From Oscillospiraceae bacterium (GTDB lineage: Bacteria; Bacillota; Clostridia; Oscillospirales; Oscillospiraceae), in contig JAFQZN010000031.1 in NCBI GenBank assembly GCA_017405865.1, positions 1 through 42,559 on the forward strand: DNA of 42,559 nt. Reading direction: 5' to 3'. The notes below the pieces were generated by a model. That model was not told the DNA's origin. It made no database searches and worked only from the letters and a program-made list of their open reading frames with translations. This document shows, one piece after another, positions 15,735 to 42,379 of this stretch. Each line of letters begins with the position of its first letter. Positions within the stretch are counted from its first letter, which is position 1. The translations under genes were made by a program, and so were the position numbers.

Positions 15735-16805
15735 TCATCTTCGCGCAATGACGCCGCCGCCGAGGACGGTATCTCCCTGATACAGTACTGCGGCCTGCCC
15801 GGGCGTGATCGCGCGCTGCGGCTCGTCAAAGCGCAGCTGCACGGCGCCGTCCTCTGTCGGGACGGCGGTAGCCCACTGCTCCGGCTGACGGTAGCGGATT
15901 TTTGCTTTACAGCGAATTGCATTTTGCGGCGTTTTGCCGCTGATCCAATGAAATGCACGCACTATGGCGTCACTGCGGAACAAATCGCTGTTTTCGCCGA
16001 GCACTACCGTGTTACTTTCGGGGGAAATATCGCAAACGTAGAGCGGCTCCGGCGCGGAAATGCCAAGCCCTCTTCTTTGGCCGATCGTGTAGTGAAGGAT
16101 TCCTCTGTGCCGACCGAGAATGTGTCCGTTTTTGTCCGTAAAATCACCGGGCACGGGCTGCCTGCCGGAAATGCGCTGTACGACGCTTGCGTAATCGCCG
16201 TTCGGCACGAAGCAAATATCCTGACTGTCCGGCTTCTGCGCATTGCAAAAGCCGCTTCGCTCCGCCATGGCGCGCACCTCCGACTTTTTCAGGTCGCCGA
16301 GCGGGAAGACGGTATGCGCAAGCTGCTTCTGCGTCAGATGATACAGCACATAGCTCTGATCCTTTGATTCATCAAGGGCTTTTTTCAGAACAAAACTGCC
16401 GTTTTCCTTTTCAATTCTTGCATAATGCCCCGTCACGATACAATCACAGCCGAGGAGCACGGCGCGCTGATAGAGCTTCTGGAATTTCAGATAGGTGTTG
16501 CAGTCAATGCAGGGATTCGGCGTGATCCCGTTTTCGTAGCTGTCTGCGAATTTCCGGATCACTTTTTGACGAAATTCCTCTGTAAAGTTAAAGACGTAAT
16601 ACGGAATGCCGAGACGATAGGCGACGCTTCTGGCGTCCTCCACGTCGTCGAGAGAACAGCAGGTTTTTGACCGCTCCACCCCAGCGTCCTCGTTTTGAAA
16701 GAGCTTCATCGTGCAGCCGATGCACGAATATCCGTTTTCAAGCATGAGTTTGGCGGCGAGGGATGAATCCACGCCGCCGCTCATTGCAATCAGTGCCTTT
16801 TTCAT
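15735..16805 (-). CDS. mnmA: tRNA-specific 2-thiouridylase MnmA
   Basis: Makes 2-thiouridine at the wobble position (U34) of tRNA-Lys, -Glu and -Gln, using sulfur relayed from a cysteine desulfurase and ATP. The 356 residues contain the PP-loop SGGVDSS (9-15) and the two catalytic cysteines, Cys99 in NPCIDC and Cys198 in QDICFV. The C-terminal beta-barrel that grips tRNA begins near HYTIGQRRGLG. It lies three bases after nifU in the operon, which links the desulfurase to tRNA thiolation. Confidence 0.97.
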   Translation of the reverse strand: MKKALIAMSGGVDSSLAAKLMLENGYSCIGCTMKLFQNEDAGVERSKTCCSLDDVEDARSVAYRLGIPYYVFNFTEEFRQKVIRKFADSYENGITPNPCIDCNTYLKFQKLYQRAVLLGCDCIVTGHYARIEKENGSFVLKKALDESKDQSYVLYHLTQKQLAHTVFPLGDLKKSEVRAMAERSGFCNAQKPDSQDICFVPNGDYASVVQRISGRQPVPGDFTDKNGHILGRHRGILHYTIGQRRGLGISAPEPLYVCDISPESNTVVLGENSDLFRSDAIVRAFHWISGKTPQNAIRCKAKIRYRQPEQWATAVPTEDGAVQLRFDEPQRAITPGQAAVLYQGDTVLGGGVIARR

Positions 16806-32292: not shown

Positions 32293-33328
32293 CCGGCAGC
32301 GCGCCTCCCACGGACTTGGGGTCTGCGTTGTAGAGAACCTCCAGCATCTGTTTGACGGCGGTGTGCATTTCCTCGCCGGTGATGAGGCAAATGTTGCAGT
32401 TGGGCAGCGCCTTCTGGGCGACGGCTGCCTTAGGCACGATGCCGGCGCTTTCGATCAGCACGGAGGCTGCAGCCGGATCGGCGTTGACGAAATCAACCGA
32501 GGCGCGGTATTCTTCGAGGAAGGTCGCGACGGCGTTCGGATACTGCTCGGCAAAGGCGCGGTTGACGATGATGCAGCCCTGCACCAGCGTGCTGTCTGCG
32601 ACCTTGTCCCATTCCTCCGTCAGATCGAGCGCGATGCGCACGTCGGGATTTCCCGACAGGACAGCGGTGACGTTCGGCTCCGGCAGCATGCCGAGGGCGA
32701 CGTCGCCTGCGGACATCTTGGTTGCCAGCTCCGCATGCTCGGAAAGATACTCGACCGTCAGATCGGCCTCCGGGTCAAGACCGTTCGCCTCGAGCAGATA
32801 GTTGAGGACGTATTCCGGGGTCGCGCCCTGACCCGTCGCGTAGAGGGTCTTGCCCGCGAGATCGGAAATGCTGTGAATGGAGTCGCCGTTTTCCAGAACG
32901 TAGAGCACGCCGAGGGTGTTGACCGCGATGACCTGCACGTTCTGTTCGGTCTTCTGCCAGAGAACGGAGGCGAGATTGACCGGCACGGCGGCGATATCCG
33001 CGCTGCCGCTGATGATCGAGGAGGCGACCTGATCGGGCGCAGAGGAGACGGTAAATTCATAGTTGCCCTCCGCGCTGCCGCTGGCGGCGTCATCTATCAG
33101 CCTTGCCATGCCCATGCCGGTCGGCCCCATCAGCGTGGCGACGCGGACGACCTCCGGCGCAGGCGCTTCCGTTTCGGTGGGTGCTTCGGTCGGCGCTTCC
33201 GTTTCGGTGGGCGCAGCTTCCTGCGTGGACGGCTGCGCATCGGCCGGGTCAGCCGGACTGCCCGCGCAGGCGGCAAAGCAGGCGACGATCAATACGAGCG
33301 TCAAAAGAATGGAAATCAGTTTTTTCAT
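32273..33328 (-). CDS. ABC importer substrate-binding lipoprotein
   Basis: A 351-residue exported lipoprotein. The signal peptide MKKLISILLTLVLIVACFAAC has candidate lipidated Cys17 (I-V-A-C) or Cys21 (F-A-A-C). A Thr/Glu/Ala/Pro-rich linker follows (about 25-60, repeated TEAPTEAP), then the type II binding fold from VVRVATLMGPTGMGMA. It looks like the PhnD/SsuA/NMT1 superfamily; the substrate is unknown. GGAGGT precedes ATG 33328; the frame stays open to 34021 but that extension overlaps the regulator gene and is not coding. Confidence 0.88.
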   Translation of the reverse strand: MKKLISILLTLVLIVACFAACAGSPADPADAQPSTQEAAPTETEAPTEAPTETEAPAPEVVRVATLMGPTGMGMARLIDDAASGSAEGNYEFTVSSAPDQVASSIISGSADIAAVPVNLASVLWQKTEQNVQVIAVNTLGVLYVLENGDSIHSISDLAGKTLYATGQGATPEYVLNYLLEANGLDPEADLTVEYLSEHAELATKMSAGDVALGMLPEPNVTAVLSGNPDVRIALDLTEEWDKVADSTLVQGCIIVNRAFAEQYPNAVATFLEEYRASVDFVNADPAAASVLIESAGIVPKAAVAQKALPNCNICLITGEEMHTAVKQMLEVLYNADPKSVGGALPDDEFYR

Positions 33329-33984
33329 CGTGTGGTACCTCCGTAGATTTTTTGAAATTCTTCCGCCGACGTCAGGCGGACGGTTTTTCCGGTTCGGGTG
33401 AGCTGTCCGCTCTGCTCCAAAAAGGCGAAGGCGCGGTAGAGGCTCGCCCTGCCGAGATCGAGCAGAGCAGAAAGCCTTACCATGCTCACCGGCAGGGTCA
33501 GCTCGCCGTTTTCCGCAGGCAGCGAGAGCAGATACTGCGCCAGCTTCTTCTCCGCAGACCCTGCGGTGAAGGCGGCGATTTTGCGGTTGAGAAAGCCGAT
33601 CCTGTCCGTGAGGAAGCAGATGTAGTTCCGCGCGAACGTGAAGTCCGCGCGCATCAGCTCCTCCACCGTTTTCTGCGAAAACAGCAGCACGACGCTCTTC
33701 TCGCAGGCGGTGACGGCGGTGAGCCATGAGCGGCTGCCGAACAGGGAGGCCACGCCGAAGCAGTCTCCCGCGCGGAGCTTGTTCAGAACGAGAGCACTGT
33801 CTCTGGCCGCACCGGACACGAGCACACTGCCGGAGCGGATCAGGCACAGAAACTCGCCGACGCCGCCGATCTGCTCGCCCTTGGCAAACGTACGGACGGC
33901 GCAGCGCTCCGCTGCGGTCTGCAGCACGGCCTCGGAGACGTGAGAAAACAGCGGCGCGGCTGCAATGCAGGATAAAACTTCCAT
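33325..33984 (-). CDS. Crp/Fnr-family transcriptional regulator
   Basis: A 219-residue regulator with an N-terminal cyclic-nucleotide-binding-type beta-barrel (about 10-120, with the LRAGDCFGVASLFG turn) and a C-terminal winged helix whose recognition segment is LSALLDLGRASLYRAFAFLE. The Fnr-type four-cysteine N-terminus is absent, so it is not a classical oxygen sensor; the effector is unknown. It heads an operon with the substrate-binding, permease and ATPase genes, overlapping the next gene by 4 bp, and a palindrome overlaps its promoter. It is probably a local regulator of this importer. Confidence 0.9.
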   Translation of the reverse strand: MEVLSCIAAAPLFSHVSEAVLQTAAERCAVRTFAKGEQIGGVGEFLCLIRSGSVLVSGAARDSALVLNKLRAGDCFGVASLFGSRSWLTAVTACEKSVVLLFSQKTVEELMRADFTFARNYICFLTDRIGFLNRKIAAFTAGSAEKKLAQYLLSLPAENGELTLPVSMVRLSALLDLGRASLYRAFAFLEQSGQLTRTGKTVRLTSAEEFQKIYGGTTR

Positions 33985-34123: not shown

Positions 34124-34152
34124 TTTACATCCGTCGGATTATCTGCTATAAT
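34124..34152 (+). promoter_or_regulatory. Hydrogenase operon promoter
   Basis: TTTACA (34124-34129), 17 bp, TATAAT (34147-34152). The leader is about 49 nt, ending in AGGAGGG before hydC. No Rex-type TTGTTA..TAACAA box is visible around it. It is divergent from the crp promoter, 66 bp away. Confidence 0.8.
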
Positions 34153-34207: not shown

Positions 34208-34699
34208 ATGGCTTCTAAAAAAACCACGGTCCCGTTCCAGGGCACAAAGGAACAGGAAGAGAAGCTGATGGCTGTCATTGCCGAGCTGAAGGATCAGCCC
34301 GGCTCGCTGATGCCCATCATGCAGAAAGCGCAGGACATCTACGGCTACCTGCCCATCGAGGTGCAGACCATGATCTCCGAAGCGATGGGCGTACCGCTGG
34401 AAAAAATCTACGGCATCGCAACCTTCTACGCGCAGTTCACACTTGCGCCGAAGGGCAAGTACCGCTGCTCGGTCTGCCTCGGCACCGCTTGCTACGTCAA
34501 GGGCGCGCAGGCGATCTACGACAAGCTCGTGGAGCTGCTCGGCATCAATGAGGGCGAATGCACACCCGACGGCAAGTTCTCGCTGGAGGCCTGCCGCTGC
34601 GTCGGCGCCTGCGGCCTTGCGCCTGTCATGATGATCAACGACGACGTCTACGGCAGACTGACGCCGGATATGCTGCCCGATATTCTCGCAAAATATTAA
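34208..34699 (+). CDS. hydC: HydC: 24-kDa [2Fe-2S] subunit of NADH-linked hydrogenase
   Basis: Thioredoxin-like ferredoxin subunit, homologous to NuoE, of the trimeric [FeFe] hydrogenase that oxidises NADH and reduced ferredoxin together to make H2 (or runs in reverse). The 163 residues have an N-terminal helical domain and a [2Fe-2S] site at Cys90, Cys95, Cys131 and Cys135 (C-x4-C and C-x3-C). AGGAGG precedes ATG 34208; the open upstream extension overlaps the promoter. It opens the ten-gene operon, separated from hydB by seven genes rather than adjacent to it. Confidence 0.93.
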   Translation: MASKKTTVPFQGTKEQEEKLMAVIAELKDQPGSLMPIMQKAQDIYGYLPIEVQTMISEAMGVPLEKIYGIATFYAQFTLAPKGKYRCSVCLGTACYVKGAQAIYDKLVELLGINEGECTPDGKFSLEACRCVGACGLAPVMMINDDVYGRLTPDMLPDILAKY

Positions 34700-34714
34700 G
34701 CTCGGAGGCCGCCT

Positions 34715-35059
34715 ATGAAAATCCGTGAGATTGCACAGCTGCTCGAGGCGCAGGTGCTCTGCTGCGAGGAAGAGCTGGACGCCGAGGTGTCCGACGCCTT
34801 CTGCTGCGACATGATGAGCGACGTGCTCGCCTTCGCAACCAACCAGTCCGTGCTGATCACGGGGCTGCTCAATCCCCAGGTGGTGCGCACGGCGATGATG
34901 CTGGATATGCACTGCATCGTCTTCGTCTGCGGCAAGCAGCCCACGCCGGAGATCGTCTCGCTGGCCAGAGCCAATGACATCGTCACCATGGTCACGGAGC
35001 ATCACATGTTCTCCGCTGCCGGGCGGCTGTACGAGACGGGCCTTCTACACGGAGAATAG
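34715..35059 (+). CDS. DRTGG-type small protein 1
   Basis: A 114-residue cytoplasmic protein that I assign to the DRTGG domain family, based on the overall pattern IREIAQLLEAQVL.., a central DVLAFATNQSVLITG and a final sensing-like TPEIVSLARANDIVTMVTEHH. The family's function is unknown; it is often found beside CBS domains or in hydrogenase operons. Six cysteines (for example CC at 16-17 and FCCD) could be redox-active, but no standard cluster motif is present. It lies 15 bp after hydC and 3 bp before the GHKL ATPase gene. GGAGG precedes the start. Confidence 0.65.
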   Translation: MKIREIAQLLEAQVLCCEEELDAEVSDAFCCDMMSDVLAFATNQSVLITGLLNPQVVRTAMMLDMHCIVFVCGKQPTPEIVSLARANDIVTMVTEHHMFSAAGRLYETGLLHGE

Positions 35060-35062
35060 GCC

Positions 35063-35482
35063 ATGGCTGCGCTGACGTTTCACTATGACGTGGACGGGCA
35101 GGACTTCTCCTCTGCGGGCGAAGCCTCCGTTGCCGTCAAGAAAAAGCTGCGCCAGCTGGGCTTCCCGTCCGACGTGATCCGCCGCTGCTCGATCGCAATG
35201 TACGAGGGCGAGATCAATATGGTCATCCACGCCAATGGCGGCACGGCCGACGTGCTGGTAGAGCCTGAGAAGATCACGATCATCCTCGAGGATCACGGCC
35301 CGGGCATCCCGGACGTGGAGCTTGCCATGAAGGAGGGCTATTCCACCTCCACGGAGGCCATCCGCACGATGGGCTTCGGCGCCGGTATGGGTCTTCCGAA
35401 CATGAAGCGCTACACCGAAAGCCTCGAGATCGAGACGGAGGTCGGCGTGGGGACGAAGCTCACCATGGTCGTGAAAGTTTAG
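35063..35482 (+). CDS. Stand-alone GHKL ATPase domain (RsbW/anti-sigma-like)
   Basis: A 139-residue protein consisting of one GHKL ATP-binding domain. The N-box is in YEGEINMVIHANGG (about 47-60), G1 is EDHGPGIPD (about 85-93) and G2 is GFGAGMGLPNMKR (about 112-124). Size and layout fit the anti-sigma-factor kinase group (RsbW/SpoIIAB-like). There is no phosphoacceptor His domain and no partner anti-anti-sigma factor nearby. It probably phosphorylates or sequesters another product, perhaps one encoded in this operon; that is inference. The ribosome site GGAG overlaps the previous gene's end. Confidence 0.85.
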   Translation: MAALTFHYDVDGQDFSSAGEASVAVKKKLRQLGFPSDVIRRCSIAMYEGEINMVIHANGGTADVLVEPEKITIILEDHGPGIPDVELAMKEGYSTSTEAIRTMGFGAGMGLPNMKRYTESLEIETEVGVGTKLTMVVKV

Positions 35483-35503
35483 AAAACAGGAGGAAGTAGT
35501 CGC

Positions 35504-36790
35504 ATGGCATCCTTTCAGCATTCCGTGTCTCTGGACGCGCACAAGTGCATCGGCTGTACCTCCTGCCTCAGGCAATGCCCGACGGAGGCCATCCGCATCC
35601 GCGACGGCCGTGCGGTGATCCGCACGAATCTTTGCATTGACTGCGGCCGCTGCGTCCGCGTGTGCCAGCACAAGGCCAAGCGCGCCGTGTTTGACCGCAT
35701 CAGCGAGATCGACCCGAAGTACAAGTGGCGCATTGCGCTGCCCGCGCCTGCGCTCTACGGCCAGTTCGACGAGCTGAATGAGGTCGGCGACCTTCTGCAG
35801 GCGCTGCTGGAGCTGGGCTTCGACGACGTCTATGAGGTTGCGCGCAGCGCAGAGATCATCTCCGAGTGTACCCGCCGCTATATGCGAAAGCCGGAGATTC
35901 TCAAGCCGGTGATCAGCTCGGCCTGCCCCGCCATCGTGCGGCTGATCCGGCTCCGGTTCCCGGAGCTTTGCGACCACGTGCTGCCGATCCTGCCGCCGGT
36001 GGAATACGCCAGCAGAGCTGCCAAGCAGGAGGCGCTGCTGCAGCATCCCGAGCTGAAGCCCGAGGAGATCTGCACGGTGTTCATCAGCCCCTGCCCCGCC
36101 AAGACCAGCTACGCCAAAAACGGCTTGAGTCAAACCAAGAGCACGATCGACTACGTCGTGTCCATGACCGACGTGTACCGGAGGCTCTCCGGTAAGCTCG
36201 GCAAGACGAAGAGCGTCACCATGAAGAGCAAGGCAGGCATCGCGGGCGTGAAGTGGGCAAGCTCCGGCGGCGAGGCCGAGGGACTCTATTCCGACCGCTA
36301 TCTGGCGGCCGACGATATGGACAACGCGATTCAGGTGCTCGACGCGATCGAAAACGGCAAGCTGCCCGCGCTGGAGTTTGTCGAGCTCAACGCCTGCCCG
36401 GGCGGCTGCGTGGGCGGGGCGGCGACGGTCGAGAACCCCTATATCGCAAAGGCAAGACTGCTTTCGTTAAAGCACAAGCTGCCGAATTACCGCAACTATT
36501 TGAAGGTCGAGAACAAGGAACCCGACTTCATTCCCGACGACGCGCTGGTGGATAACCCGATTCTCGATTACGTTCCACCCGAGCGCTTGAGCGAGGATCG
36601 CCTCGAGGCAATGCGCATGATGGCGGAGATCGAGGAGATCTACGAGCTGCTGCCGCAGATCGACTGCGGCTCTTGCGGCGCGCCGACCTGCCGCACCTTT
36701 GCCGAGGACGTGGTCAAGGGCGAGTGCCGCGTGGAGGACTGTATCGTGCTTCTGAAAAAGAAGCTGCAGGAGCAGGAGGAGCAGCTATGA
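35504..36790 (+). CDS. HydS-type putative sensory [FeFe] hydrogenase (group D-like)
   Basis: A 428-residue iron-sulfur protein related to the H-cluster domain. Order: two [4Fe-4S] ferredoxin motifs (CIGCTSCLRQCP 15-26, CIDCGRCVRVC 44-54), a reduced H-cluster domain (about 75-330), and a C-terminal four-cysteine Fe-S motif with Cys388, 391, 396 and 408. The H-cluster loops are degenerate. L1 is SSACPA (Ala140 then Cys141) instead of TSCCPxW; L2 is SPCPAK (Cys197, Lys200) instead of MPCxxK; L3 is NACPGGCVGG (Cys298, Cys302) with Asn in place of Met. Four cluster cysteines and the Lys remain. As I recall, group D enzymes such as Thermoanaerobacter mathranii HydS also carry Ala at this site, have low activity and are thought to sense H2. 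No PAS domain is fused. Confidence 0.85.
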   Translation: MASFQHSVSLDAHKCIGCTSCLRQCPTEAIRIRDGRAVIRTNLCIDCGRCVRVCQHKAKRAVFDRISEIDPKYKWRIALPAPALYGQFDELNEVGDLLQALLELGFDDVYEVARSAEIISECTRRYMRKPEILKPVISSACPAIVRLIRLRFPELCDHVLPILPPVEYASRAAKQEALLQHPELKPEEICTVFISPCPAKTSYAKNGLSQTKSTIDYVVSMTDVYRRLSGKLGKTKSVTMKSKAGIAGVKWASSGGEAEGLYSDRYLAADDMDNAIQVLDAIENGKLPALEFVELNACPGGCVGGAATVENPYIAKARLLSLKHKLPNYRNYLKVENKEPDFIPDDALVDNPILDYVPPERLSEDRLEAMRMMAEIEEIYELLPQIDCGSCGAPTCRTFAEDVVKGECRVEDCIVLLKKKLQEQEEQL

Positions 36791-37113
36791 CCGTGCAAGC
36801 ATTGGCCGAGGCACTTTGCCTCACACCGCTGTGTATGCCGGAGCCTGACCGCGAGGTCGAGGGCGGCTATATCGGCGACCTGCTCTCCTGGGTCATGGGC
36901 AACGCCCAATCCGGCGACGCGTGGATCACGATCATGTCCAACGACAACGTGGTGGCCGTCGCGGTGCTGACCGACGTCGCCTGCGTCATTCTCTCCGAGG
37001 GCGTGACGCTCGACGGGCGGCTGCGCGAGCTGGCGGAGAAGAAGGGGATCAACGTCTTCTCAACGGAGCTTTCCTCCTTTGCCGTCGGCGCGAAGGTGGC
37101 GGCGCTGCTATGA
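36787..37113 (+). CDS. DRTGG-type small protein 2
   Basis: A 108-residue protein with the same overall plan as DRTGG protein 1: an N-terminal helix MTVQALAEALCL, the shared GDLLSWVMGNAQSGDAWITI region, and the C-terminal REKK-type helix RLRELAEKKGINVFSTELSSF. The two are paralogues or at least the same fold. It overlaps hydS by 4 bp (ATGA) and the PHP gene by 4 bp, so HydS, this protein and PHP are translationally coupled. Function unknown; a ligand-binding or regulatory subunit is guessed. Confidence 0.65.
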   Translation: MTVQALAEALCLTPLCMPEPDREVEGGYIGDLLSWVMGNAQSGDAWITIMSNDNVVAVAVLTDVACVILSEGVTLDGRLRELAEKKGINVFSTELSSFAVGAKVAALL

Positions 37114-37847
37114 GCCGCTACTTCTACGACCTGCATCTGCACTCCTGCCTCTCGCCCTGCGCTGACGACGATATGACGCCGGCGAATATCGCGGGCATGG
37201 CGTCTTTGTGCGGGCTGCAGCTTGTGGCGCTGACGGATCACAACACCTGCGGCAACTGCGGCGCCTTTCTCACGGCCTGCCGGAAATACGGCATCGTGGG
37301 CGTTCCGGGCATGGAGCTGACCACGGCGGAGGAAATCCACCTCGTGTGTCTGTTCCCGACGCTGGAGGCCGCCGAGGCCTTTGCCCGCGACGTGAAGGCG
37401 GCGCGCCTGCCGATCAAAAACAAGCCCGCCGTCTTTGGCAACCAGCTTTATATGGACGACGGGGATCAGATCCTCGGCGAGGAACCGAATCTGCTGATCC
37501 CGGCAACGCAGCTCTCGCTTGAGGAAGGGACTGCGCTGGCGCTGTCCCACGGCGGCGCAGCCTATCCTGCGCACATCGACCGTCCCTCCAACGGCATTCT
37601 CGGGATTCTGGGCGCTCTGCCCGAACGACCGTTTTTTCCGACGCTGGAGATCAACGATCCGGAGAATCTCGAACGTTACCGTGAGCAGTACGGACTGCAA
37701 AACCGCAGGCTGCTCTGCTCGTCCGACGCGCACCGTCTGGAGAGCATGCGCGACGCCGGGTCGTACCTTGATCTGGACGACGAGCCGTACAGCTCGCAGC
37801 GGGTCAGGGACGTGCTGATCGGGCTGCTGCGAGGGGAAATGCAATGA
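37110..37847 (+). CDS. PHP-domain phosphoesterase
   Basis: A 245-residue metal-dependent hydrolase of the PHP family. Metal-binding motifs: DLHLHSCLSP (H-x-H near the N-terminus), LTDHN, GMELTT with the bridging Glu, ALSHGG, and SSDAHRL near the C-terminus. PHP enzymes include histidinol-phosphate phosphatase, the polymerase proofreading domain and the 3',5'-bisphosphate nucleotidases; a match to any of these cannot be decided. In this position it may dephosphorylate a signalling partner or a nucleotide. It overlaps both neighbours by 4 bp. Confidence 0.88.
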   Translation: MSRYFYDLHLHSCLSPCADDDMTPANIAGMASLCGLQLVALTDHNTCGNCGAFLTACRKYGIVGVPGMELTTAEEIHLVCLFPTLEAAEAFARDVKAARLPIKNKPAVFGNQLYMDDGDQILGEEPNLLIPATQLSLEEGTALALSHGGAAYPAHIDRPSNGILGILGALPERPFFPTLEINDPENLERYREQYGLQNRRLLCSSDAHRLESMRDAGSYLDLDDEPYSSQRVRDVLIGLLRGEMQ

Positions 37848-38371
37848 AAGAACTGTCCTTGAACATCCTCGATATTGCAAAGAACTCCGTGAAAGCCAAG
37901 GCAACGCTGATCGAGATCGTCATTGACGAGCGTGACGGCTGGCGGCGGCTCACGATCCGCGACAACGGCTGCGGTATGCCGCCGGAGATGGTCGCGACCG
38001 TGACCGACCCCTTTACCACGAGCCGCACGACGCGGCCGGTCGGCATGGGACTGCCGCTTCTGAAGCTCGCGGCGGAGCAGACCGGCGGTACGCTGTCGGT
38101 GAAGTCCTCGCAGGGCGAAGACCACGGCACCGAGGTCACGGCGACCTTTGCGACGGATCACCTCGACTGCGTTCCCGTCGGCGACTACGCCGGCACGATG
38201 GTCACGCTGATCCAGGGAAGCCCTGAAATCGACTTTTCGTTTACCTACCGCCGCGATGGCGGAGAAATCAATCTGGAAACCGCGCAAATGCGTGAAATAC
38301 TGGGCGACGTCCCGCTTGATACCCCGGAGGTTCTCTCTTGGGTGTACGAGAGCCTGACCGCGCCTGAATAA
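37844..38371 (+). CDS. Stand-alone GHKL ATPase domain, second copy
   Basis: A 175-residue protein with a GHKL ATP-binding domain in residues 1-105: N-box LNILDIAKNSVKAKA, G1 DNGCGMPPEM, F-box DPFTTSRTTRP and G2 VGMGLPLLKLAAE. It resembles the catalytic half of a histidine kinase more than RsbW. A C-terminal stretch of about 70 residues has no domain I recognise. There is no dimerisation/phosphoacceptor His domain and no transmembrane part. It overlaps the PHP gene by 4 bp and is followed after 45 bp by the ferredoxin-like gene. The partner is unknown; the two GHKL proteins could be a kinase pair. Confidence 0.85.
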   Translation: MKELSLNILDIAKNSVKAKATLIEIVIDERDGWRRLTIRDNGCGMPPEMVATVTDPFTTSRTTRPVGMGLPLLKLAAEQTGGTLSVKSSQGEDHGTEVTATFATDHLDCVPVGDYAGTMVTLIQGSPEIDFSFTYRRDGGEINLETAQMREILGDVPLDTPEVLSWVYESLTAPE

Positions 38372-38416
38372 CTCTGTAAGCAATATTTTTGATACAAAAA
38401 AGGAAAGGAACGTACT

Positions 38417-38791
38417 ATGAAAACTTTGGCGGAACTTCAAGCCATCCGTGACCGGATGAAGGACACTGTCAATCTGCGCAGCGGCAGCGGCAGCATTCGC
38501 GCCGTGGTCGGCATGGCAACCTGCGGCATCGCCGCCGGCGCCAGACCCGTACTCTCTGCGCTTGTTGAGGAGGTCAGCAGGCTCGGCCTCACCGATAAGG
38601 TCACCGTGACCCAGACCGGCTGCATCGGCATCTGCCGTTATGAGCCCATCGTCGAGGTCTACGAGGCCGACAAGGAAAAGGTCACTTACGTCAAAATGAC
38701 CGCCGAAAAGGCGCGCCGCGTTGCCGAGGAGCATCTGCAGGGCGGCAAGGTCGTGGAGGAATACACGATCGGCGCAGTCGAAAACGCATAA
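38417..38791 (+). CDS. Thioredoxin-like (2Fe-2S) ferredoxin-type protein, HydABC-associated
   Basis: A 124-residue protein of the thioredoxin-like ferredoxin type (TM1420-like) that accompanies hydB in many anaerobes. It probably passes electrons to or from HydB or assists its assembly. Cys36 is in GMATCGIAAGA; Cys69 and Cys73 are in TGCIGIC. The classical motif has four Cys and I see only three, so the fourth ligand is not obvious. AAAGGAAAGGA precedes ATG 38417. It is 12 bp from hydB. Confidence 0.85.
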   Translation: MKTLAELQAIRDRMKDTVNLRSGSGSIRAVVGMATCGIAAGARPVLSALVEEVSRLGLTDKVTVTQTGCIGICRYEPIVEVYEADKEKVTYVKMTAEKARRVAEEHLQGGKVVEEYTIGAVENA

Positions 38792-38803
38792 GGAGGAACG
38801 CAA

Positions 38804-40621
38804 ATGATTCGATCCCATGTACTGATCTGCGGAGGCACCGGCTGTACCTCTTCCGGCAGCGTGAATGTCAAGGCAAAGCTGGAGGAAGAGCTTGCGGCGA
38901 AGGGCCTGAACGGAGAGATCAAGGTCGTTCAGACCGGCTGCTTCGGCCTGTGCGCCCTCGGCCCCGTGATGATCGTCTATCCCGAGGGTACGTTCTACAG
39001 CCGCGTCACGCCGGAGGACGTTCCCGAAATCGTTGAAGAGCATCTGCTCAAGGGCCGCATCGTCACCCGCCTGGAATACAAGGAAGGCGCGGAGATCACG
39101 CAGCCCGGCGAGAACGTCTCCCTCAACGACACCGATTTCTACAAATCCCAGCTCCGCGTGGCGCTGCGCAACTGCGGCGTCATTAACCCGGAGAACATCG
39201 ACGAGTATATCGCCCGCGACGGCTATATGGCGCTGGGCAAGGTACTCACCGAGATGACGCCCGACGACGTCATTCAGGTCCTGCTGGACTCCGGTCTGCG
39301 CGGCCGCGGCGGCGCAGGCTTCCCCACCGGCCTGAAGTGGAAGTTCGCCAAGGGCTACGAAAACGACCAGAAGTACGTCTGCTGCAACGCCGACGAGGGC
39401 GACCCCGGCGCGTTCATGGACCGCTCCGTTCTCGAGGGCGATCCTCACGCCGTGCTGGAAGCCATGACCATTGCCGGTTATACCATCGGCTCCTCGCAGG
39501 GTTACATCTACGTCCGCGCCGAGTATCCCATCGCGGTCAAGCGCCTGCAGATCGCCATTGATCAGGCGCATGAATACGGCCTCTTGGGCGATAATATCCT
39601 CGGCACCGGCTTCAAGTTCGACATCGGCCTCCGCCTCGGCGCAGGCGCGTTCGTCTGCGGCGAAGAGACCGCGCTGATGACCTCCATCGAGGGCAACCGC
39701 GGCGAGCCCAGACCCCGTCCCCCGTTCCCTGCGGAGAAGGGTCTGTTCCAGAAGCCGTCCATCCTGAATAACGTCGAAACCTGGGCGAATATCCCCCAGA
39801 TCATTCTCAAGGGCGCCGATTGGTTTGCCTCCATGGGTACCGAAAAGTCCAAGGGTACCAAGGTCTTCGCCCTCGGCGGCAAGATCAAGCACACCGGCCT
39901 CGTCGAAATCCCGATGGGCACGCCCCTGCGCCAGGTTATCGAAGAGATCGGCGGCGGCATCCCCAACGGCAAGAAGTTCAAGGCGGCGCAGACCGGCGGC
40001 CCCTCCGGCGGCTGCATCCCGGCCAGCCTCATCGACACCCCGCTGGATTATGAGAGCATGGCGGCCATCGGCTCCATCGTCGGCTCCGGCGGCCTGATCG
40101 TCATGGACGAGGACAACTGCATGGTCGACATTGCGAAGTTCTTCCTGAAATTCACGGTCGACGAGTCCTGCGGCAAATGTACCCCCTGCCGTATCGGCAC
40201 CAAGCGCCTGCTGGAGATTCTGGAGAAGATCACCTCCGGCAAGGGTACGCTCGAGGATATCGACAGGCTCGAGGAGCTGTGCAACTACATCAAGGCGAAC
40301 GCTCTCTGCGGCCTCGGCCAGACGGCGCCGAACCCCGTGCTGTCCACGCTGCGCTACTTCCGCGACGAGTACATTGCCCACGTGGTAGAAAAGCGCTGCC
40401 CCGCCGGCGTTTGCAAGGATCTGCTGAAATTCGTCGTGGATAAGGAAAAGTGCATCGGCTGCGGCCTGTGCATGCGCAACTGCCCCGCCTCCGCCATCAG
40501 CAAGACCGACTACGTTGCCCCCGGCCACAAGCTGCCCTCTGTCGAGATCGACCCCGACAAGTGCGTCAAGTGCGGCGTCTGCATGGGCAACTGCAAGTTC
40601 AAGGCCATCAGCAAGCAGTAA
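38804..40621 (+). CDS. hydB: HydB: NADH/FMN-binding flavoprotein subunit
   Basis: The 605-residue flavoprotein of the NADH-linked [FeFe] hydrogenase, NuoF-like, where electrons from NADH and ferredoxin are joined. Order: N-terminal [2Fe-2S] thioredoxin-like domain with Cys9, Cys14, Cys46, Cys50; the FMN/NADH domain with GRGGAGFPTGLKW (about 166) and CNADEGDPGAFMDR; the SLBB and 4Fe domain with ESCGKCTPCRIGT (about 453); and a C-terminal pair of [4Fe-4S] motifs, CIGCGLCMRNCPASAIS and CVKCGVCMGNCKFKAIS. This layout is that of HydB in Thermotoga and acetogens. AAGGAGG precedes ATG. It is 12 bp upstream of hydA. Confidence 0.96.
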   Translation: MIRSHVLICGGTGCTSSGSVNVKAKLEEELAAKGLNGEIKVVQTGCFGLCALGPVMIVYPEGTFYSRVTPEDVPEIVEEHLLKGRIVTRLEYKEGAEITQPGENVSLNDTDFYKSQLRVALRNCGVINPENIDEYIARDGYMALGKVLTEMTPDDVIQVLLDSGLRGRGGAGFPTGLKWKFAKGYENDQKYVCCNADEGDPGAFMDRSVLEGDPHAVLEAMTIAGYTIGSSQGYIYVRAEYPIAVKRLQIAIDQAHEYGLLGDNILGTGFKFDIGLRLGAGAFVCGEETALMTSIEGNRGEPRPRPPFPAEKGLFQKPSILNNVETWANIPQIILKGADWFASMGTEKSKGTKVFALGGKIKHTGLVEIPMGTPLRQVIEEIGGGIPNGKKFKAAQTGGPSGGCIPASLIDTPLDYESMAAIGSIVGSGGLIVMDEDNCMVDIAKFFLKFTVDESCGKCTPCRIGTKRLLEILEKITSGKGTLEDIDRLEELCNYIKANALCGLGQTAPNPVLSTLRYFRDEYIAHVVEKRCPAGVCKDLLKFVVDKEKCIGCGLCMRNCPASAISKTDYVAPGHKLPSVEIDPDKCVKCGVCMGNCKFKAISKQ

Positions 40622-40633
40622 GGAGGACCGATC

Positions 40634-42379
40634 ATGGAAGAATATACCATTAAAATCAACGGCATCGAGGTCACCGCACCGAAGGGGACCACGATCCTGC
40701 AGGCTGCGAGAATGGCCGGCATCCAGATCCCCACGCTCTGCTACCTCAAGGACATGAACGAGATCGGCGCCTGCCGTATCTGCGTCGTCGAGGTCAAGGG
40801 CGCGCGCGGACTGTGCGCCTCCTGCGTGTACCCGATCGCCCCGAATATGGAAGTCTTTACCCACACCCCGAAGGTCGTGGAATACCGCAGAAAGACGCTC
40901 GAGCTGATCCTCTCGGATCACAACTGCTCCTGCCTGTCCTGCGTCCGCTCCGGTCAGTGCGAGCTGCAGACCCTCTGCCGCGAGTACGGCGTGGAGAACG
41001 AGGAGGTCTACGCGGGCGAGAAGAATCCGTCCGAGCTGGACGAGTCCGCCGTGCACATGGTGCGCGATAACTCCAAGTGCATCCTCTGCCGCCGCTGCGT
41101 CGCCGCCTGTGAAAAGGCGCAGGGCATCGGCGTCATCGGTGCGAACGAGCGCGGCTTCAAGACCAACATCGGCAGCGCCTTTGACATGGGACTGGCTGAG
41201 ACGAGCTGCGTCTCCTGCGGCCAGTGCATCGCGGTGTGTCCCACGGGCGCGCTGTATGAGAAGTCCTGCATCGACGAGGTCACCGAGGCAATCAACGACC
41301 CCGAAAAGTACGTCGTCGTGCAGACTGCCCCCGCCGTCCGTGCGGCGCTGGCGGAAGCGTTCGGCTACCCGATCGGCACCAACGCCCAGGGCAAAATGGC
41401 TGCCGCGCTGCGCCGCCTCGGCTTTGACAAGGTGTTTGATACCAACTTCGGCGCAGATCTCACGATCATGGAGGAGGCCAACGAGTTTATCGAGCGCGTG
41501 AAGAACGGCGGCAAGCTGCCGATCATCACCTCGTGCTCGCCCGGCTGGGTCAAGTTCTGCGAGCATTACTACCCCGAATTCCTTGACAACCTCTCCACCT
41601 GCAAGAGCCCGCAGCAGATGCAGGGCGCGATCACCAAGAGCTATTTCGCCGAGAAGAACGGCATCGACCCGAAGAAGATCGTTTCCGTCTCGGTCATGCC
41701 CTGTACGGCAAAGAAGTTCGAGATCGGCCGCGAGAATCAGGGCCGTGACGGCCTGCCCGACATGGACTACACCATGACCACCCGCGAGCTTGCCCGCATG
41801 ATCAAGCGCGCCGGCATCCGCTATGAGGATCTGCCGGAGGAAGAGTTTGACCATCCGCTGGGCGAAGGCACCGGCGCAGCCGTGATCTTCGGCGCGACCG
41901 GCGGCGTCATGGAAGCGGCGCTGCGTACCGCCGTCGAGACGCTCACAGGCGAGACCCTGCCGCGTCCCGACTTCAAGGAAGTCCGCGGCACCGACGGCAT
42001 CAAGGAAGCGACCTACGAGGTCGCCGGTCTGACCGTCAATATCGCGGTCGCCTCCGGGCTTTCCAACGCCCGCAAGGTGCTGGATATGGTCAAGAGCGGC
42101 GAGAAGAACTATCACTTCATCGAGATCATGGCCTGCCCGGGCGGCTGCGTCAACGGCGGCGGTCAGCCGCAGGTTCCGGCGTCGATCCGCAACTTCGTGG
42201 ACATCCGCGCCGAGCGCGCTAAAGTGCTGTATTCTCTGGACGAGACCAACACGATCCGCAAGTCGCATGAGAATGCCGCGGTCATCGAGCTTTACAACTC
42301 CTATCTCGGCAAGCCCGGCTCCCACAAGGCGCACGAGCTGCTGCATACGAGCTACACCCCGCGCAAGGGCTACAAATAA
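40634..42379 (+). CDS. hydA: HydA: [FeFe] hydrogenase catalytic subunit
   Basis: The 581-residue catalytic subunit, reducing protons to H2 or the reverse. N-terminal [2Fe-2S] domain (CYLKDMNEIGACRICVVEV, cysteines 36, 47, 50, 64); the His-Cys3 [4Fe-4S] motif (DHNCSCLSC..QC, about 95-109); two [4Fe-4S] motifs, CILCRRCVAACEKAQG (149-164) and CVSCGQCIAVCPTGA (192-206); then the H-cluster domain with L1 TSCSPGW (299-305), L2 MPCTAK (355-360) and L3 EIMACPGGCVNGGGQP (497-512). The L1 form with Ser after the Cys is frequent in NADH-linked trimeric enzymes as I recall. AAGGAGG precedes ATG 40634. It ends the operon. Confidence 0.97.
   Translation: MEEYTIKINGIEVTAPKGTTILQAARMAGIQIPTLCYLKDMNEIGACRICVVEVKGARGLCASCVYPIAPNMEVFTHTPKVVEYRRKTLELILSDHNCSCLSCVRSGQCELQTLCREYGVENEEVYAGEKNPSELDESAVHMVRDNSKCILCRRCVAACEKAQGIGVIGANERGFKTNIGSAFDMGLAETSCVSCGQCIAVCPTGALYEKSCIDEVTEAINDPEKYVVVQTAPAVRAALAEAFGYPIGTNAQGKMAAALRRLGFDKVFDTNFGADLTIMEEANEFIERVKNGGKLPIITSCSPGWVKFCEHYYPEFLDNLSTCKSPQQMQGAITKSYFAEKNGIDPKKIVSVSVMPCTAKKFEIGRENQGRDGLPDMDYTMTTRELARMIKRAGIRYEDLPEEEFDHPLGEGTGAAVIFGATGGVMEAALRTAVETLTGETLPRPDFKEVRGTDGIKEATYEVAGLTVNIAVASGLSNARKVLDMVKSGEKNYHFIEIMACPGGCVNGGGQPQVPASIRNFVDIRAERAKVLYSLDETNTIRKSHENAAVIELYNSYLGKPGSHKAHELLHTSYTPRKGYK

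Follow-up and report, generated by a model that had tools for sequence, protein, structure and literature searches.

A conserved five-gene unit around a group D hydrogenase, a candidate signalling module beside HydABC in an Oscillospiraceae bacterium

The window analysed here is the entire contig JAFQZN010000031.1 of an Oscillospiraceae bacterium (42559 bases), which ends 180 bp past hydA, so that genes further downstream are not visible. Ten co-directional genes combine hydC, hydB and hydA of a HydABC hydrogenase with genes for a second, putative sensory hydrogenase (hydS), two small DRTGG proteins (DRT1, DRT2), two GHKL ATPases (GHK1, GHK2), a PHP-family phosphoesterase (PHP) and a HydD-like protein. 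Gene order and co-occurrence showed DRT1, GHK1, hydS, DRT2 and PHP to be one co-inherited gene unit, and at the level of conserved residues its kinase-like and phosphoesterase-like sites are intact. We rate as about even the chances that these proteins form a signalling complex built around the group D HydS, with an output on a ferredoxin/NAD(H) enzyme. A preliminary description, made by reading the sequence, had proposed an H2-sensing relay at this locus, which is plausible in outline. The co-inheritance is strong.

Conservation of the five-gene unit

An open reading frame check placed all ten frames of the preliminary description on the + strand at the positions it had claimed. It had described mostly 4-bp overlaps or gaps of at most 45 bp between the genes; the sizes were correct, with gaps outnumbering overlaps (six gaps of 3-45 bp and three 4-bp overlaps over nine junctions). 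The gene names were backed by Pfam and NCBIfam, for the HydD-like protein only below the cut-off.

hydC, 34208-34699 (+): NuoE-like subunit with a 2Fe-2S thioredoxin fold (PF01257, 2.7e-51)
DRT1, 34715-35059 (+): protein with a single DRTGG domain (PF07085, 2.3e-9); opens the five-gene module
GHK1, 35063-35482 (+): SpoIIAB/RsbW-like GHKL ATPase, presumed Ser/Thr kinase (PF02518/PF13581)
hydS, 35504-36790 (+): group D (M2e) putative sensory [FeFe]-hydrogenase (PF02906, PF04060, Fer4)
DRT2, 36787-37113 (+): second DRTGG protein, paralogue of DRT1 (PF07085, 3.4e-7)
PHP, 37110-37847 (+): PHP-family metal phosphoesterase (PF02811, 9.1e-7)
GHK2, 37844-38371 (+): histidine-kinase/MutL-type GHKL ATPase with a C-terminal extension and without HisKA (PF02518, 6.9e-18)
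HydD-like, 38417-38791 (+): 2Fe-2S-thioredoxin-fold protein (NF041612, 6.3e-12, under cut-off)
hydB, 38804-40621 (+): NuoF-like flavin/NAD subunit (PF01512, 6.2e-45; PF10589)
hydA, 40634-42379 (+): catalytic subunit of a group A6 NADH-dependent [FeFe]-hydrogenase (NF040763, 903.9 bits, cut-off 765)
Promoter match, 34124-34152 (+): sigma-70-type TTTACA-17-TATAAT, 55 bp ahead of hydC, 11/12 positions matching; a match to consensus only, in a region with 5 such sites against 2.0 expected

Profiles of the ten genes were used to scan 80 close contigs and 60 diverse regions, the latter hand-picked for family spread with odd cases included and therefore a non-random sample, in which some loci end at a contig edge. 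The order DRT1-GHK1-hydS-DRT2-PHP was complete in 78 of the 80 close loci, the other two stopping at a contig edge, and in 47 of the 60 diverse loci, and a chance run of genes was thereby ruled out. Among the loci with the complete order, the layout of the window (hydC directly before the module and GHK2 after PHP) was found in 68 close loci but in no diverse locus, which makes the order in the window look locally rearranged, the module being normally located ahead of hydC. The pair hydC-GHK2 directly followed PHP in 8 close and 31 diverse loci, GHK2 came right after PHP with no hydC ahead in 0 close and 8 diverse loci, and 2 close and 8 diverse loci had other layouts. GHK2 was directly 3' of hydC in 31 of the 60 diverse loci and groups with hydC-fdx-hydB-hydA, a set that is separate from the module in one locus (L185) and divergent to it in two (L116, L173). 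Judged by these arrangements, the contiguous conserved unit is the five genes from DRT1 to PHP, and GHK2 co-occurs but belongs with hydC-fdx-hydB-hydA. The preliminary description had treated all six inserted genes as one cassette, which stood as far as co-occurrence is concerned and had to be narrowed to five genes, with GHK2 apart, as regards contiguity.

Co-occurrence was followed in 299 genomes of the phylum, which are not independent and were not corrected for kinship, with tallies (as for HydG below) compiled by hand from match lists and with neighbour profiles built from hydS-adjacent genes, so that stray relatives may be missed. Group D hydS, separated from presumed group C by an author-chosen E-value cut of about 1e-60, was present in 120 genomes (fragmentary matches included) from 46 family-level groups. 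GHK1 was detected in 119 of these 120 genomes (118 within 6 kb) compared to 7 of the 179 others, and none of its matches inside the 1e-22 limit was weaker than 8.3e-49. PHP was detected in 112 (106 near) compared to 4 of the 179, and GHK2 in 114 (104 near) compared to 11. Coordinates showed a contig-end cut in G332, a genome with GHK1 only, and in G289, one with PHP only. Near hydS, PHP was present in 39 of the 46 family-level groups and GHK1 in all 46. The preliminary description had expected its reading to fail if homologous operons usually lacked the inserted genes or had them scattered; this was not the case, because the genes co-occur with hydS and keep their order in most of the diverse loci.

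Fusions between neighbouring genes of the module were also found. DRT1 is fused to GHK1 in four loci (L123, L124, L147, L161), GHK1 to HydS in L155, HydS to DRT2 in L128, and PHP to GHK2 in L148 and L149, such that every adjacent pair of the five-gene unit is fused somewhere except DRT2-PHP. Pfam confirmed the fusions apart from the DRTGG domains of L147 (not matched) and L123 (under cut-off). The fusion of neighbouring genes is a usual sign that their products touch, and these natural fusions argue for a complex of the module proteins. A structure model of the L161 DRT1-GHK1 fusion had a predicted local distance difference test score (pLDDT) of 91.9 and a predicted template-modelling score (pTM) of 0.81 despite a low-confidence linker, its halves matching SpoIIAB and DRTGG structures, and the model hints that DRT1 and GHK1 are held in a fixed arrangement.

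Other arrangements were met at single loci. In family f49 (L142, L167), a second hydS copy is accompanied by one DRTGG gene, hydC, hydB and hydA, with no GHK1 or PHP. In L181, PHP is a fragment, GHK1 was not found and two DRTGG genes persist.

Predicted properties of the encoded proteins

By its cysteine and site motifs, the gene that the preliminary description had called hydS-like encodes a group D (M2e) [FeFe]-hydrogenase. In an alignment of 23 sequences, 16 cluster cysteines and A140 were invariant, including those of the H-cluster (C141, C197, C298, C302) and of the two N-terminal [4Fe-4S] clusters (C15/18/21/25/44/47/50/54). The C-terminal motif Cx2Cx4Cx16C (C388/391/396/413 in the window) recurred, with a last spacing of 15-18, in all 136 HydS scoring above 300 bits. 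At the proton-path site Cys299 is replaced by Ala (SSACP), as in 97 of the 136 with 39 unread by the pattern, and Met353 is replaced by Ser (FISPC), this position being S in 96, T in 26, A in 2 and unread in 12. The position of Met497 is Asn296 in the window and N in 73 of the 136 (pattern unread in 53); it is Leu in TamHydS, the group D enzyme of Thermoanaerobacter mathranii, according to the available part of its description (PMC8163306), and may possibly not be a defining feature of the group. A Pfam scan found no PAS domain in the HydS of the window, which ruled out a group C identity; longer and far weaker HydS matches were open reading frames of 555-611 amino acids and are presumably group C. 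HydS was not found in a search of viral contigs.

HydS is probably a sensor. TamHydS shares with it the changes of C299 to Ala and M353 to Ser, the C-terminal Cx2Cx4Cx16C motif and the lack of a PAS domain, and is likewise encoded close to a HydABC of the bifurcating type and to a histidine-kinase-like ATPase, as far as the accessible portions of two papers go (PMC8163306, PMC13104023). These describe a low H2-production activity (PMC8163306) and a secondary structure that shifts under H2 (PMC13104023). These portions are silent on any DRTGG or PHP partner and mention an AraC regulator, which is absent from the ten genes of the window. Group C sensory [FeFe]-hydrogenases (TmHydS; the HydS and HfsB of R. 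albus) are also proposed H-domain sensors beside catalytic hydrogenases, but carry the PAS domain that is absent here (PMC11837493, in the part available). That sensory hydrogenases occur beside HydABC, as the preliminary description had stated, agrees with an account from 2013 of a histidine kinase and a group-D-like hydrogenase upstream of the bifurcating hydrogenase in all Thermoanaerobacter strains examined, the accessible text of which makes no mention of DRTGG, PHP, fusions or hydrogenase-less versions (PMC3608648). A search of the open-access literature found no paper linking DRTGG or PHP proteins to this HydS-kinase-HydABC neighbourhood, and the lone open-access paper containing both 'DRTGG' and 'hydrogenase' deals, in its accessible part, with another DRTGG protein.

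GHK1 has SpoIIAB as its best PDB match by both sequence and fold, with the N-box Glu/Asn aligning to 1til, and residues E48, N52, H56, D77, G79 and G81 were conserved in 58/58 aligned sequences; the GHK1 half of the L161 fusion model reached a template-modelling score (TMt) of 0.84 to 1til. With its N-box Glu/Asn intact, GHK1 is presumed to be a SpoIIAB-like Ser/Thr kinase. It shares fold and N-box with the SpoIIAB/RsbW anti-sigma serine kinases but falls under the cut-off of the SpoIIAB family TIGR01925 (2.4e-14, 53.4 bits, cut-off 135), and no STAS antagonist or sigma partner is present among the ten genes. GHK2 matched histidine-kinase ATPase domains and MutL in a sequence comparison with the structure database, and D10, N14, D40, G42 and G44 (Asn14 and the DxGxG box) were conserved in 47/47 aligned sequences. 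The two kinase-like ATP-binding proteins of the preliminary description were therefore recovered (an HATPase domain twice, with its residues kept), GHK1 being anti-sigma-kinase-like without the usual partners. A Pfam scan (E 0.001) found no HisKA, receiver or STAS domain among the ten proteins, in line with the reported absence of an ordinary histidine kinase or response regulator, and an ordinary two-component system was ruled out, since the ten genes are without a HisKA/DHp or receiver domain.

DRT1 and DRT2 are paralogues, as first proposed (hhalign probability 99.8%, E 1.9e-27). D32, S35 and T49 of DRT1 were conserved in 52/52 aligned sequences and D31, S34, T48 and N54 of DRT2 in 58/58. 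Both match the CBS-DRTGG regulatory part of a C. perfringens pyrophosphatase (3l2b, 3l31) and are possible adenine-nucleotide binders. The common ground with that enzyme is the DRTGG fold and the co-occurrence of CBS and DRTGG proteins, which is seen in modules too; the difference is that the DRTGG of the module stands alone or is fused to the GHKL kinase or HydS, and not to a pyrophosphatase.

In the PHP protein, H9, H11, D43, H44, E69, H77, H155, D206 and H208, which we take to be metal ligands, were invariant in 21 aligned sequences and each was kept in 50-53 of a wider set of 53. Its AF2 model (pLDDT 95.8) matched endonuclease Q, RNase AM and an AMP-bound phosphoesterase in a PDB comparison. 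Cys17 was invariant (53/53) and presumably occupies the place of the Asp in the usual SDG motif of many PHP enzymes.

HydA was over the NF040763 cut-off and is encoded with hydB and hydC, as defines a group A6 HydABC; its nearest solved chain was A. woodii HydA1 (7q4v), with TSCSP common to both. The HydD-like protein is without the first canonical Cys, and none of 110 short homologues with a CGxAAGA motif had a Cys among the five residues preceding it, which suggests the protein may hold no cluster. A. woodii HydABC, the closest by HydA, has a counterpart in HydD, a small subunit predicted to be without cofactor in the accessible part of its source, a likeness by description and not by alignment (PMC6288185).

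Versions without HydS and neighbouring redox enzymes

Two CBS domains are located ahead of GHK1 in L154, L174, L175, L176 and L177, and one was matched in L122. The arrangement DRT1-[CBS-GHK1]-DRT2-PHP-GHK2, without HydS, occurs before rnf in L174, before hydC-fdx-hydB-hydA in L175, and also in L176, and L177 has DRT1-[CBS-GHK1]-fdx-rnfCDGEAB. Further HydS-less versions are DRT1-GHK1-DRT2-GHK2 with rex and rnfC (L179; L178 likewise but with no DRT1 call) and DRT1-GHK1 with rex, nfnAB, fhs and rnf (L180). L182 and L183 have DRT1-hydC-GHK2 without GHK1 or a group D hydS. Across the 60 diverse loci, the genes nearby included Rex at 11 loci from 8 families, Rnf at 8 loci from 7, one half of a formate dehydrogenase at 7 loci from 4, and NfnAB at 3 loci from 3, and Pfam backed at least one example each of Rex, RnfC, an NfnB-like protein and the molybdopterin half. 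Because versions adjoin Rnf, NfnAB or formate dehydrogenase, some of them with CBS and no HydS, the target may be wider than the hydrogenase. In a hydC-GHK2-fdx-hydB operon (L151), the formate dehydrogenase frame contains an in-frame TGA at 15960, where selenocysteine would stand.

Using a consensus that we assumed for the Rex operator, sites with at most 2 mismatches were found upstream of module or GHK2 operons in 20 of the 153 regions scanned, compared to 1.35 expected (maximum 5 in 60 Markov shuffles). No such operator precedes hydC in the window, where the best site had 6 mismatches.

A proposed signalling route and its alternatives

HydS would read H2 or reductant at its H-cluster and change shape, and in this altered state would act on GHK1, which would serve as a SpoIIAB-like, ATP-dependent Ser/Thr kinase and might have its activity set by the DRTGG proteins too. 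GHK1 would then modify a partner, the candidates being the DRTGG proteins, GHK2 and the subunits of HydABC, and this modification would be reversed by the PHP enzyme. GHK2 and the HydD-like protein would pass the signal to HydABC, giving a post-translational control of a ferredoxin/NAD(H) enzyme, to which Rex would add transcriptional NADH control in some lineages. In T. tengcongensis, the NAD(H)-dependent hydrogenase activity drops fourfold at high H2 and kinases are located upstream of the hydrogenase (PMC3492117, in its available part, quoting Soboh 2004); by analogy, this drop fits, without proving, a control by H2 through the module.

Several results weigh against this route. Thirteen of the 60 diverse loci were without the full five-gene order. 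HydS-less module versions exist (L174-L180), therefore H2 is not always the input. L163 and L164 each have hydS broken into two frames and L181 has it only as fragments, a pattern that suggests joint decay of the module. The stretch with the invariant Ser of DRT1 and DRT2 aligns also to the generic DRTGG protein 2ioj, so this Ser need not be a phosphosite. Finally, the genome of the window (92% complete) gave no match over cut-off for the H-cluster maturases HydF and HydG, a T. maritima control being positive each time, and HydG was not found in 23 of the 50 group D HydS carriers of the order, the window genome included, with 27 carrying it.

In a survey of 98 genomes of the order, HydA was present in 90 (E 1e-150; 74 over cut-off) and HydG in 45, with HydG not found in 49 of the 90; HydG matches were listed at 1e-100 or better order-wide and at 1e-20 in 16 genomes. 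In all 16 of the genomes searched for both, HydF and HydG agreed (7 with, 9 without). Of the 23 HydG-less HydS carriers, 11 were at 97% completeness or more, and one genome counted as HydG-less (G072) had a HydG-like match below cut-off (172.5 bits compared to 312). The HydA motifs TSCSPGW, MPCxAKK and MxCPGGC were kept in 12/12 HydG-less and 8/8 HydG-bearing genomes read, the HydS H-cluster cysteines were kept in both groups, and no HydS column split the two (12 compared to 11 rows). These lineages may have another route of H-cluster maturation, the searches may have overlooked the genes, or the site may no longer contain its diiron part. That HydF and HydG were not found speaks against H2 sensing in the organism of the window.

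The strongest competitor to a complex built around HydS, though we think it rather unlikely, is a core in which DRTGG, with CBS where present, senses adenine nucleotides or energy charge, HydS being an optional redox input and several ferredoxin/NAD enzymes being tuned. The CBS domains fused to GHK1 in six loci (L122, L154 and the HydS-less L174-L177), the match of DRTGG to the CBS-DRTGG part of the pyrophosphatase, and the Rnf (8/60), formate dehydrogenase (7/60) and NfnAB (3/60) neighbours all speak for such a core. Against it, 119 of the 126 GHK1-bearing genomes also have group D HydS, and the DRT1, DRT2 and GHK1 of the window are without a CBS domain.

An assembly or maturation module, with the GHKL ATPases and DRTGG proteins as chaperones building HydS or HydABC and no signal involved, is improbable. 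GHKL folds do include chaperone-like ATPases, GHK2 and the HydD-like gene lie inside the HydABC unit, and searches for HydF and HydG came up empty in many carriers. However, GHK1 comes closest to a serine kinase, HydA was present in 212 of the 299 genomes (E 1e-150), of which 92 or more are without group D hydS, HydG does not track hydS (27 with and 23 without, of 50), and in L150, L154, L144 and L145 the module adjoins Rnf or NfnAB and the stretch read there has no HydABC.

A role for HydS within the HydABC complex, as a slow accessory enzyme or an electron relay, with the small proteins as its regulatory subunits and no sensing of H2, seems the least probable of these readings: all H-cluster and N-terminal cluster cysteines are kept and TamHydS does catalyse the reaction, if slowly (PMC8163306, available part), but Ala stands in for the proton-path Cys and Ser for Met353, in common with the putative sensors, and the module is divergent from hydABC in L116 and L173 or without hydABC in the stretch read in L170 and L171.

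Returning to the signalling complex around HydS, a wider form of it is a tentative proposal that we hold with less confidence than the complex itself. The module may represent a separate signalling system in anaerobes, neither two-component nor Rsb partner-switching, in which an exchangeable input (H2 via HydS; adenine nucleotides via CBS) feeds a DRTGG-GHKL-DRTGG-PHP-GHKL core that tunes HydABC, Rnf, NfnAB and HydBC-linked formate dehydrogenase. If so, fermenting anaerobes would own a dedicated kinase-like system for balancing H2, ferredoxin and NADH, with a bearing on rumen H2, ethanol yield and acetogenesis. The identification of interaction partners of group D hydrogenases was recently called critical for clarifying their signalling mechanism (PMC13104023, 2026, in the accessible part). 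Gene order, co-occurrence and the four kinds of fusion name DRT1, GHK1, DRT2, PHP and GHK2 as candidate partners of HydS and predict which pairs touch, and with partners named this standing question therefore becomes testable with purified proteins.

Upstream of the operon and divergent from hydC, a Crp/Fnr-type regulator (PF00027, PF13545) is encoded at 33325-33984 (-), with a promoter match at 34058-34030, and could control the hydC-hydA operon.

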